From: Bacillota bacterium
GTDB taxonomy: Bacteria; Bacillota; Limnochordia; DTU080
Direction: 5' to 3'
NCBI GenBank assembly: GCA_012840225.1
Contig: DULU01000023.1
Location: 1 to 40,807 of the forward strand
DNA length: 40,807 bases
The notes under the pieces are model-generated. The model saw only the letters and a list, made by a program, of their open reading frames with translations. It did no database searches and was not told the DNA's origin. Positions 9,400-37,552 of the stretch are shown one piece after another. The translations under genes and the position numbers were made by a program. Position 1 is the first letter of the stretch; every line of letters starts with the position of its first letter.

Positions 9400-9452
9400 A
9401 TTATAACTCCCTTGTCACCTTTATGGAAATAAATTGGCTCCGTTTGAGGAGA

Positions 9453-9702
9453 CTATCCTAATGCTGCATCGAGGCTGTTGTCTTCCATATCATACACCTT
9501 CTTATTGGTTTCGCCCTGGAAACGTGAAGCCGTCGGCTACACTTGCCTGCAACAATTGTCCTGCGATGTCTGTCAGCCTTTTGCAAACGGCGACCGGGGC
9601 TCATGGAGCTCGTCGGCGAGTATCTTATATGCATCCGGAAATGGCTTCCGCAACCCACTGTTTCAAAGTGCCTTCCTCTTGCTTAACATATTCCCTTTTC
9701 AT
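9453..9702 (-). pseudogene. Decayed gene with multiple frameshifts, family unknown
   Basis: Three consecutive frames on the minus strand each give a protein-like piece: from ATG 9702 MKREYVKQEEGTLKQWVAEA, then YKILADELHEPRSPFAKG, then LTDIAGQLLQASVADGF, ending in a KKVYDMEDNSLDAALG segment before TAG 9453. Joined, they read as one protein of about 90 residues, so the gene has at least two frameshifts. I do not recognise the family. Confidence 0.35.
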
Positions 9703-9729
9703 CAATCCATAATATTTAAATTACACCCG

Positions 9730-10001
9730 TCAACACAAACTCTCCATCCGGAGCTTATGCCAGTTCTCCTTGAAATACGGCAGGCGTACAAAGGCCTGAG
9801 ACAAAAATTCCAGCACTACCACATCATCGACCTCTTCTATATCCCGGAATTCCAGTCGGCGCAGGAAGCGGCCGGTGCCGGCTTTGAAACGCTTGTCCGG
9901 ATCAGCCAACAATCCGCCAAAAACGTTCATCCCAAGCTCCAACTCATCCATTTAATTAATATTCGCCACTTATCCTCCAACTCTTTCAGTGAATACAGCA
10001 T
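9730..10001 (-). pseudogene. Frameshifted small gene, family unknown
   Basis: An ATG at 10001 opens MLYSLKELEDKWRILIK, which shifts by one base near 9948 into a 73-residue frame beginning DELELGMNVFGGLLADPDKR and ending at 9730. The downstream frame alone has an ATG (9951) but no ribosome binding site and an in-frame TAA just before it, so a frameshift of an ~90-residue charged protein is the better reading. Together with 9453-9702 this fills the gap 9400-10133; the last 130 bases show nothing. Confidence 0.35.
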
Positions 10002-10133
10002 TGACACCGGCTTTATCTAGGCGCCCGGCACATCCACATCAGGCGCGGCATAGCCCGGCGAAAAAGCTATTGTCCACCAGACAACTGTTACTCTTGGTAT
10101 GCCCGGTCCGGAAACGAAAGCAGCCTAGAGGAA

Positions 10134-11777
10134 GTGCGCCCTGAACCGCTCACGGATTTGCACATCGCACCGCACCCTGCCCAAGCTGCGGATAGTGAAC
10201 CCCAAGGCCAAAGCGCATCTTTTCTGCGGCGAGGTCTTGAATATATTCCGGCCGCGGCCGACGCCGCCTTAGCCAGCTTCCCCCTTTTCCTGGCCTATCA
10301 GCAAATACATCCGGAAGTGGTTGCAGCCCTCGACTTCTCGCTGAAGGAAAACATCGAGAATTTCAGCGACTTGAAGCAAATTGTGGAGTCTACCGAAGCC
10401 ATGAGTCCGGAAGCATATGCCGGATGGTTTTCACGGCTGGAAGGGTATGTCGGTGAGGAGATAGCCGCCAATGCCTTGGAAGCGTCCGGTTTTGAGGTGC
10501 TGGCCGCCGAAACCGCCAACAACCCCGGCTGGGATCTACTGGTGGATGGCCAGGAATATAACGTGAAAGTGGGAAAAGGCATTGGTCACATCATGGAGCA
10601 CTTCGACAAATACCCGGACATCGATGTTATCACCAGCCCCGATTTGGCCGCAGAGCTTCCGGCCGAGCTCCAGGACAAAGTGATCCCCCTCACGGAGCTG
10701 GACCACGAACACCTGACGAGCAAGATTACCGAAACCTTGGAAGGTGTTGAAGGTGTCGACTTCGACGTGGAGATACCGGTAATCACCTTTCTGGTTTCCG
10801 GCTGGCGGGAATTGAAACTTAACTATAAAGGCTACACAGATTTGCTCACTTCCCTGAAAAACATCGGCCTCGATGTGGCCGGCACCGGCATCGGCGGTAC
10901 CATTGGCGGCAAGATCGGCGCAGCCATCGGCACATTCATCGCGCCGGGAGTTGGTACAATTACAGGCGCGGCCATAGGTGCCCTAATTGGCGGCATTTCC
11001 GGTAGGATGTTTACCAACAGCATCAAAACCATGGCCTTCAGGGAAGCTGTAGAGGACTATCAAAGGGCGGTAGACGAAAGTCAGAGGCAAATAGAAGAGA
11101 AACATGCTTCATTCAGAGAATCCATGGCCAATTTGATATCCAACGTCAACGACGAACTCCAGGATAGGGTGCGCTCCATCGAGCACACCCATCGCCAGGA
11201 TCTATACCTGGCCAAAAATGATTATGAGACCGCATGTCGAGCTTTTGCTCTCGCTGTCCCTGAGGCTCTGGCGGAAAGCGAGCGCCGCCTGGTCGACGAG
11301 CAAAAAGAGGTATTGCAGATGATGAAGCGATCAGGCCTATTCCGGCGGACATTTTGGCCGGCGCACCACGACTTGATCTATATGGCTGTCAAGAGCTGGT
11401 TTAGGAGCCGGCGACGGGAACTCTCCAGGCTGGCTGCCTATCTGCGGCGCAAAAGCACCCGGCTGTCCGGCGGCGCCGCCGTGCAGCTTATCAAGCAGCA
11501 CCTTGATAAGAAGGTTATTCCCAATCCCCGGTTGGAAGAGGCTGTCGACCGGCTGTTGAGCGAGCAAAAGCAGGCTTTGGAGCGTTGCGAAACGGCACGA
11601 TCTCTGGCCACGGAAGAGATAAAGATGGCCTACACGCAGTCACAAAACCGTATCAAAAGAGCTATGACCGCCGGCCTGCAGGAAATGGCGCGCCTGTTGC
11701 AGGAAATGAACAGACGCATCGCCCCACTGAAGGAGCGGGTGGTTCTGGAGGGAAGAAAACTGGGTTATAACCTCTAA
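10134..11777 (+). CDS. Unrecognised protein: PD-(D/E)xK-like region, glycine zipper, coiled coils
   Basis: The 547-residue protein is not one I can name. Residues ~100-150 contain YVGEEIAANALEASGF, then NNPGWDLLVDG (D134) and YNVKVG (K145), an order that resembles Mrr/Holliday-resolvase PD-(D/E)xK nucleases, though the middle E/Q is Asn here. Residues ~248-292 are a glycine zipper (repeated GxxxG, e.g. GGTIGGKIGAAIG) able to span or disrupt a membrane. Residues ~300-350 and ~480-540 look like coiled coils; between them lies a basic segment. The start is unsure: GTG 10134 has GAGG almost touching it, and the open frame runs further upstream without a better codon. The CPBP protease gene is convergent, 12 bases away. 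Confidence 0.7.
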   Translation: MRPEPLTDLHIAPHPAQAADSEPQGQSASFLRRGLEYIPAAADAALASFPLFLAYQQIHPEVVAALDFSLKENIENFSDLKQIVESTEAMSPEAYAGWFSRLEGYVGEEIAANALEASGFEVLAAETANNPGWDLLVDGQEYNVKVGKGIGHIMEHFDKYPDIDVITSPDLAAELPAELQDKVIPLTELDHEHLTSKITETLEGVEGVDFDVEIPVITFLVSGWRELKLNYKGYTDLLTSLKNIGLDVAGTGIGGTIGGKIGAAIGTFIAPGVGTITGAAIGALIGGISGRMFTNSIKTMAFREAVEDYQRAVDESQRQIEEKHASFRESMANLISNVNDELQDRVRSIEHTHRQDLYLAKNDYETACRAFALAVPEALAESERRLVDEQKEVLQMMKRSGLFRRTFWPAHHDLIYMAVKSWFRSRRRELSRLAAYLRRKSTRLSGGAAVQLIKQHLDKKVIPNPRLEEAVDRLLSEQKQALERCETARSLATEEIKMAYTQSQNRIKRAMTAGLQEMARLLQEMNRRIAPLKERVVLEGRKLGYNL

Positions 11778-35874: not shown

Positions 35875-36564
35875 TCAAGATTCGCCGCACAAGCCTCTTT
35901 CTCTCAAACTTATATATTTATTATCTCCAATAATTACATGGTCGAGCACCGGAATGCCCAGAATGCGACCCACATCCCGCAGGCGGTCGGTCAGGCTTAA
36001 GTCGTCGGCGCTGGGCTCGGGATCACCGCTGGGATGATTGTGCACCAGGATGACGGCGGCTGCACTGCGCCGCACTGCTTCCCGGAATAATTCTCTGGGA
36101 TGTACCAGTGATCCCTGCAAATGCCCTACAGAAACTGTTTTGATGGCTATCACCTTATTTTTGGTATCCATCAGCAATACCAGGAACTCTTCCCTGGCCA
36201 GATCGCGTAGGCGAGGTAAAACCAAAGAAGCGGCATCGGCGGCACACCTGACCGGTGGCCGCATGTGACCCTGCTGCGCCACCAGCCGCCGACCCAGTTC
36301 CATAGCTGCCAGCAGACTGGACGCCTTAGCCGGGCCGATCCCCTCTACCTGGGTGATCTCTTCCACGCTGGCATCAGCCAGATCCCGCAAGGTCTGCCAC
36401 TTGCTGAGCAGGCGGTCGGCGAGTTCCAGACTGGACGCCTGGCGGGTGCCGGAATTCAGCACCAAGGCTAATAGTTCCCTGCTGCTCAAACCTTCCGGCC
36501 CCTTGGCCATCAACCTCTCCCGAGGTTTCTCTTCATCAGGCATATAACGAACAGATATAGACAT
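35875..36564 (-). CDS. radC: RadC/JAMM family protein
   Basis: About 229 residues: a helix-hairpin-helix segment (ITQVEGIGPAKA) and the JAMM motif HNHPSGDPEPSADD (H175, H177, D187-188) that should bind zinc. RadC families are linked to DNA repair or competence but the exact role is unclear. ATG 36564, eleven bases after GGAGG, is preferred; a GTG at 36630 would overlap maf. It comes before mreB, a common Firmicute order. Confidence 0.93.
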   Translation of the reverse strand: MSISVRYMPDEEKPRERLMAKGPEGLSSRELLALVLNSGTRQASSLELADRLLSKWQTLRDLADASVEEITQVEGIGPAKASSLLAAMELGRRLVAQQGHMRPPVRCAADAASLVLPRLRDLAREEFLVLLMDTKNKVIAIKTVSVGHLQGSLVHPRELFREAVRRSAAAVILVHNHPSGDPEPSADDLSLTDRLRDVGRILGIPVLDHVIIGDNKYISLRERGLCGES

Positions 36565-36613
36565 CGCAAAGCGAGCCTCCAGTTTTTCCCTCACGAGCCT
36601 CGCCTGGCGCTTC

Positions 36614-37552
36614 TCACTGTTCACCGGCACTTAAGCCACTTAAGCCTCGATTAATCTCTCCTGCAGGAGGCATCTCCAGCCCGCACAAGCCAAGGAGCAG
36701 AGCCAGCTTGGGCACAGGCAACCCCACCACATTGAAGTAACATCCTTCGATACGGCTGACAAATATCCCTGCCCGCCCCTGAATTCCATATGCCCCGGCC
36801 TTGTCCATCGCCTCACCGCCGGCCAGGTATAATTCAATCTCCCTCTCCGAGAGCTTCTTAAAATAAACCGTCGTCACTTCATGAGTGGTGAGCAAAAGAA
36901 AGGGGGAGCTGTTGTGGGCTTTAGCTTCCCCGGCCTTGCCTTCGCCGGCTGCGGCTTCCCCGGATGCGGCTTCGCCGGGTGCGGCGCCAACCGCAGCACC
37001 CTCCTCAGCGCCCGCCGCAGCACCCTCCTCAGCGCCCGCCGCAGCACCCACCGCCGCTCCCACTGCCTCATTCACTGCCTCGTCCTCTGCCTCGTCCACC
37101 AGGGTATAGGTGATTTGCTTCTCGGCAAGGAATCCAGCGTCGGACAACGGTCCTGCCGCAGGATTAGAGATGACGGCGGCGGGAGCGGCCACAGCCAGCC
37201 CGGTCACCACTTCATGCCGGCGTCCGCTTAGAGAGCGCAGCATCTCGGCCGCTTCGGCCCGATCGGCCGGTTTGCCCAGGATGCGGCGGTCGAGGAGGAC
37301 TATAGTATCCGCCCCGATCACAATTGTCCAGGGATTGGCTTTATATACTGAGGCGGCTTTGGCTGCCGCCAACTTTACGGCATATGCAAAAGGAGCGGCG
37401 CCGCCCCCGCCCTCGCCCTCAGTCTCATGGGCGAGCGCCCCCTCATCCACATCAGCAGGTATAACCGTAAAACTTAACCCGATGCGATGCAAAAGCTCCC
37501 GCCGGCGAGGTGAGGCGGAAGCCAGTATCACCCTGGGAAAACCTAAATCCAA
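36614..37552 (-). CDS. maf: Maf family nucleotide pyrophosphatase with low-complexity insertion
   Basis: The ends match Maf: ILASASPRRREL (12-20), IGADTIVLLD (79-88, catalytic Asp), GKPADRAEAAEM, and EIELYLAGGEAMDKAGAYGIQG. Maf hydrolyses non-canonical or selected NTPs and affects division. Between strands, residues ~121-215 are extra, with 154-214 an Ala/Gly/Glu repeat (e.g. GAEEGAAAGAEEGAAVGA) encoded by a 24-bp tandem repeat. Normal Maf is ~190-210 residues; this is 312. The frame stays open, so the fold may tolerate a disordered loop. Confidence 0.9.
   Translation of the reverse strand: MDLGFPRVILASASPRRRELLHRIGLSFTVIPADVDEGALAHETEGEGGGGAAPFAYAVKLAAAKAASVYKANPWTIVIGADTIVLLDRRILGKPADRAEAAEMLRSLSGRRHEVVTGLAVAAPAAVISNPAAGPLSDAGFLAEKQITYTLVDEAEDEAVNEAVGAAVGAAAGAEEGAAAGAEEGAAVGAAPGEAASGEAAAGEGKAGEAKAHNSSPFLLLTTHEVTTVYFKKLSEREIELYLAGGEAMDKAGAYGIQGRAGIFVSRIEGCYFNVVGLPVPKLALLLGLCGLEMPPAGEINRGLSGLSAGEQ
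36993..37049. repeat. 24-bp tandem repeat inside maf
   Basis: The unit GCAGCACCCTCCTCAGCGCC+CGCC (24 bp) occurs twice without mismatch (36993-37016, 37017-37040) plus a 9-base third start. It codes on the minus strand for the GAEEGAA-type repeat in Maf. Being a multiple of three, it keeps the frame. Confidence 0.9.

Follow-up and report, generated by a model that had tools for sequence, protein, structure and literature searches.

Among the defences that act at the bacterial membrane, SNIPE is a membrane-bound GIY-YIG nuclease that becomes toxic without its membrane segment (PMC13190303) and for which DNA cutting at the membrane has been proposed. Kiwa and Zorya are also membrane-located, DNA-targeting defences, and in Kiwa the KwaB protein binds DNA but does not cleave it (PMC12904381). 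In addition, PADLOC lists a phage-defence candidate, PDC-M72B (profiles PDLC04784/04785), which belongs to a two-gene system, PDC-M72, with an adjacent PDC-M72A. From its sequence and its many repeat-like partial matches, PDC-M72A reads as an ankyrin-repeat protein.

We compared these systems with the product of one gene in a stretch of 40,807 nucleotides of DNA, referred to as the window. Like SNIPE, it is a single protein with a putative membrane segment, a predicted cytoplasmic nuclease and a long helix; this parallel is in layout only, the activity of the window protein being a predicted one. However, its nuclease is of the PD-(D/E)XK and not the GIY-YIG type, the order of the parts differs, and Pfam gave no match to a GIY-YIG nuclease or to DUF4041 in the window protein. 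On the grounds of the other nuclease fold and the missing DUF4041, membership of SNIPE was rejected. As regards the membrane part of the SNIPE-type layout, the window protein has a glycine zipper and the N-terminal anchor is found in its relatives only. The likeness to Kiwa and Zorya would be DNA-directed defence at the membrane, and the coiled-coil part of the window protein gave weak ZorA matches in PADLOC; those two systems, however, are multi-protein and their membrane components are unrelated to that of the window protein. Finally, Hjc, HindIII, EcoRII and CdiA-CT (PDB 1gef, 3a4k, 3hqg and 4g6v) have the same core fold and E-D-xK arrangement, whereas the matched domains carry no membrane segment.

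The open reading frame is a real gene, as proteins from other genomes of the class match it over nearly its full length: in two of these genomes residues 37-545 could be aligned, with 38% identity and E-values of 1.7e-96 and 4.7e-96. The source genome holds a single copy. The start of the frame is weak and uncertain: GAGGA stands just 1 nt before the GTG at 10134, nearer than is normal for a ribosome-binding site, and a search for a better in-frame start codon found none. The helical lead-in at the N-terminus (Table 1) is kept across relatives as an 'IDPRVVxAADF' segment in the alignments. The window frame has no N-terminal hydrophobic anchor, and no in-frame transmembrane segment was found upstream of it (window positions 10005-10133). 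Several Bacillota relatives begin with such a transmembrane segment, which the window gene may have lost.

Table 1. Features of the window gene and its product, with the basis of each assignment.
Feature	Position	Strand	Details	Basis
Whole open reading frame	10134..11777	+	547 aa, GTG start, start codon uncertain	Full-length homologues
N-terminal helical lead-in	10239..10403	+	Residues ~36-90 ('AADAALASF...IHPEVVAALDF')	Alignments
Predicted PD-(D/E)XK nuclease core	10416..10751	+	Residues ~95-206	AlphaFold, Foldseek, PADLOC PDC-M72B (residues 81-204)
E108	10455..10457	+	Invariant acidic residue, helix 1	27/27 relatives
D134	10533..10535	+	Invariant, opens strand 2	27/27 relatives
N143-V144-K145	10560..10568	+	(Q/N)xK motif, strand 3	K in 27/27 relatives
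Glycine zipper, hydrophobic membrane-type segment	10866..11018	+	Residues 245-295	Pfam PF13488, GxxxG shuffles, clade conservation
Long charged helices, predicted coiled coil	11019..11759	+	Residues 296-542	AlphaFold

The sequence-only reading had noticed the order GEE...D134...N-V-K145 and likened it to an Mrr/resolvase-type core. The residues stand where it had placed them (G107-E108-E109, D134 and N143-V144-K145), and the likeness held in the relatives as well as in the predicted structure. In an alignment of 13 relatives, which was built from whole proteins and is the unbiased one, eight columns were invariant: G104, E108, L115, G132, D134, G139, K145 and V165. G104, E108, D134 and K145 had no exceptions among 27 relatives from Bacillota, Pseudomonadota, Rhodothermota and Verrucomicrobiota, 25 of the 27 stretches having been excised by a loose E-D-xK pattern; relatives lacking D134 or K145 numbered zero. 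Two positions before the lysine, most relatives have the Q of a classical Q-x-K where the window protein, together with its own clade, has N. This replacement of Q or E could point to a catalytically dead PD-(D/E)XK domain that only binds DNA at the membrane, as KwaB does in Kiwa (PMC12904381). With E108, D134 and K145 all kept in 27 of 27 relatives, we regard such a dead domain as improbable.

In Foldseek, coiled-coil matches overwhelmed the full-length model, and the domain was consequently modelled separately. AlphaFold predicted for it an alpha-beta-beta-beta-alpha-beta arrangement (mean pLDDT 85.7, pTM 0.78), with E108 in helix 1, D134 at the beginning of strand 2 and K145 closing strand 3. 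In a Foldseek search against the PDB the best match of this model was the CdiA-CT toxin of Burkholderia pseudomallei (probability 1.00, E 0.021), followed by HindIII, Ecl18kI and EcoRII, with Hjc and I-Ssp6803I within the first ten. All six are proteins of the PD-(D/E)XK fold, and no known non-nuclease fold was ranked first. The Foldseek E-values alone are non-significant (best 0.021); it is the consistency of the fold matches together with the invariant residues that makes a PD-(D/E)XK nuclease fold very likely in this model. Sequence searches found no significant similarity to any PDB chain, and the core has no name in Pfam or NCBIfam, although two relatives gave weak matches to Pfam PDDEXK_5 at exactly this site (E 0.12-0.14). 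With the window protein itself, Pfam, NCBIfam and PHROGs gave matches only to the glycine zipper and the helices; matches to phage tape-measure proteins were set aside, as they resembled low-complexity matches to helices and glycines.

The CdiA-CT match also led us to consider a nuclease-bearing toxin that is secreted or delivered by contact. The fold is, however, common to many restriction enzymes, the nuclease domain is central and does not lie at a variable C-terminus, and anchored relatives should place it in the cytoplasm. No delivery domain and no conserved small immunity-type partner gene were found for the window family. A contact toxin was thus rejected for want of a delivery part, and we consider any toxin of this kind very improbable. 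Of the roles that the sequence-only reading had left side by side (membrane-attached nuclease, effector, defence, contact toxin), defence is the best supported, while the missing delivery domain and immunity partner leave the effector and the contact toxin unsupported.

The GxxxG-rich membrane-type segment that had been suggested behind the core was recognised by Pfam as Gly-zipper_Omp (PF13488) at residues 253-295, where the score of 29.3 bits exceeds the cut-off of 25. Residues 245-295 contain nine GxxxG motifs, in comparison to 4.4 in shuffles of the same segment (p 0.004), and the glycine zipper exceeds chance. A hydrophobic segment follows the core in 19 of 19 members of the close clade, so that the core and the glycine-rich hydrophobic segment occur together throughout it, and the segment is glycine-zipper rich in the Bacillota members of this clade, except for L032. 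The AlphaFold model is of low confidence over the zipper (pLDDT below 50 at residues 247-292), and the membrane character of the segment is judged solely from its composition; attachment of the protein to the membrane is likely, by a segment that would insert into it. The long charged helices, also anticipated from the letters, are evident in residues 301-547, which are 33% charged, and in very long helices predicted at high confidence (274-396, 411-441 and 465-542).

An N-terminal hydrophobic anchor is clear in the Bacillota relatives L036, L081, L082 and L086. Arg-rich stretches (RRWRWR, RRYRW) come after it in some of these, L036, L081 and L082 among them, and by the positive-inside rule the nuclease of such relatives should lie on the cytoplasmic side. 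The relatives from Pseudomonadota and Rhodothermota have, instead of the anchor, an N-terminal region of ~400 residues with hydrophobic segments of its own. We also noticed a second family (L008:1174-2781, minus strand, and L061:1192-2619, plus strand), in which 'DG...IQTK/FQSK' motifs precede membrane segments rich in glycine. It has no clear NCBIfam match, L061 corresponds to PADLOC PDC-M09B (E 4e-177), and the family may be another membrane-linked PD-(D/E)XK type. The bacterial dynamins LeoB/LeoBC resemble the window protein in the glycine-zipper and helical segment only; membership of the dynamins was rejected, the matches being limited to these parts and a GTPase domain being absent. L032:9456-14576 encodes a pair of dynamin-like GTPases along with a coiled-coil protein, convergent with the second copy that the Guaymas Basin MAG contains.

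The window protein had at first been described as belonging to no named family. This stood for Pfam and NCBIfam, which are silent on the core, and did not stand for PADLOC, whose candidate PDC-M72B covers the nuclease domain, if weakly (residues 81-204, E 6.7e-8). The match is at the level of the domain only, including E-D-(Q)xK, and is stronger in the relatives L041, L060 and L058 than in the window protein. The window protein differs in having a glycine zipper and a long coiled coil in addition, and it falls into a separate clade: in the tree the long type of the window and the PDC-M72B type form two fully supported clades. PDC-M72A is absent next to the window gene, and the source genome has only partial matches to it on another contig (C122). 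As true adjacent PDC-M72A/B pairs are found elsewhere (G236 and G099) and not here, the window was rejected as a PDC-M72 system.

The neighbours of the window copy read as housekeeping genes, and no defence genes were found near it or near several of its closest relatives. Among other relatives, at least eight are placed within or close to genes of defence or restriction. L091 sits between BREX pglX and pglZ/brxL, L041 adjoins DRT4 and PDC-S20, L037 is near DSR2 and PDC-S11, and L035 is near PDC-S11 and PDC-M33A. L038 has AbiJ nearby, an overlapping HNH gene and a GIY-YIG gene close by, and L090 has an OLD-like gene ~5 kb away. As seen by eye, L109 precedes a C5 DNA methyltransferase and L110 is beside type III restriction-modification genes and an integrase. 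L030, which is among the closest relatives, has a DPPY-motif methyltransferase upstream. The enrichment of relatives in defence loci is suggestive and not a measured one, since the choice of neighbours was made by eye and against a small control. In this control, a PADLOC scan of 30 window ORFs, matches reached 1.7e-36 and none fell below 1e-40. PADLOC matches by themselves are thus non-specific, and only strong, system-specific neighbours should count, because ordinary window genes are matched too. The profiles PDC-S48 (1.7e-36), ThsC (1e-24) and others matched ordinary-looking genes of the window, probably the RadC-like gene (35875-36630) and the HIT-like gene (1625-2059). The L091 protein (9441-11063, minus strand) is of the PDC-M72B type, with two N-terminal hydrophobic segments, within the BREX operon. 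A neighbouring membrane protease of the CPBP type, once suggested as a processing partner, was dropped, as its gene is convergent and not a conserved neighbour.

The AbiJ and OLD-like genes near relatives would also fit an abortive-infection effector, in which the membrane keeps the nuclease inactive until infection activates it to cut the cell's own DNA. The glycine-zipper and coiled-coil segments could sense a change in the membrane, and SNIPE lacking its membrane segment is toxic (PMC13190303). A conserved adjacent regulatory partner is, however, absent, and the data do not separate targeting of host DNA from that of foreign DNA; we consider this explanation unlikely.

Somewhat less unlikely is a membrane-attached nuclease that serves housekeeping or DNA metabolism (DNA uptake, plasmid partition or repair located at the membrane) and not defence. 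It would agree with the ordinary chromosomal genes around the window copy and with the neighbours of L081, L082, L083 and L087/L088, which show no evident defence role. The presence of the family is, however, very patchy: of 398 Bacillota genomes, 15 matched the domain profile, representing 14 of 267 genera, and in the alphaproteobacterial class to which L035 belongs the profile matched 5 of 385. Several relatives lie within defence loci, and in the tree a Rhodothermota protein is nested among those of Pseudomonadota, which suggests horizontal transfer of the gene. At the thresholds used, searches of phage records and of viral contigs yielded no relatives, and only two plasmid records, from Paracoccus and Shinella, contained them. 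Decayed copies were also seen: L094 (G008) is broken by frameshifts and a stop, and L012 (G025) is the C-terminal part only.

The PDC-M72B match, the relatives in defence loci and the patchy distribution favour a defence role, which we regard as probable. Our preferred explanation, which we hold with moderate confidence, is that the window protein is a membrane-tethered PD-(D/E)XK nuclease with a protective role, in which foreign DNA from phages or plasmids would be cut on its way into the cell. In the cytoplasm, E108, D134 and K145 would bind the metal and carry out the cleavage, whereas the glycine zipper, together with the N-terminal transmembrane anchor in several Bacillota relatives, would keep the protein at the inner membrane and off the nucleoid. 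The long C-terminal helices might oligomerise the protein or sense the infection machinery. A nuclease held in this way would meet entering DNA and not the chromosome, which seems to us the most economical reading. Counted against it are the lack of nearby defence genes at the window, the Foldseek E-value of 0.021, the absent anchor and the N before K.

More tentatively, the protein could represent a widespread family, so far undescribed, in which a single membrane-embedded PD-(D/E)XK protein cuts foreign DNA on entry. This family would be a second, unrelated solution to the task of SNIPE, in which membrane location, and not sequence or methylation, separates self from non-self, and its nuclease domain would also occur in BREX and restriction loci. 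If our reading is right, a family of membrane nucleases spread across at least four phyla has been overlooked by the general annotation libraries, and E108, D134 and K145 would offer a clear mutational test. The distinction of self from non-self by membrane location, so far shown for SNIPE, would then become testable in an independent family.
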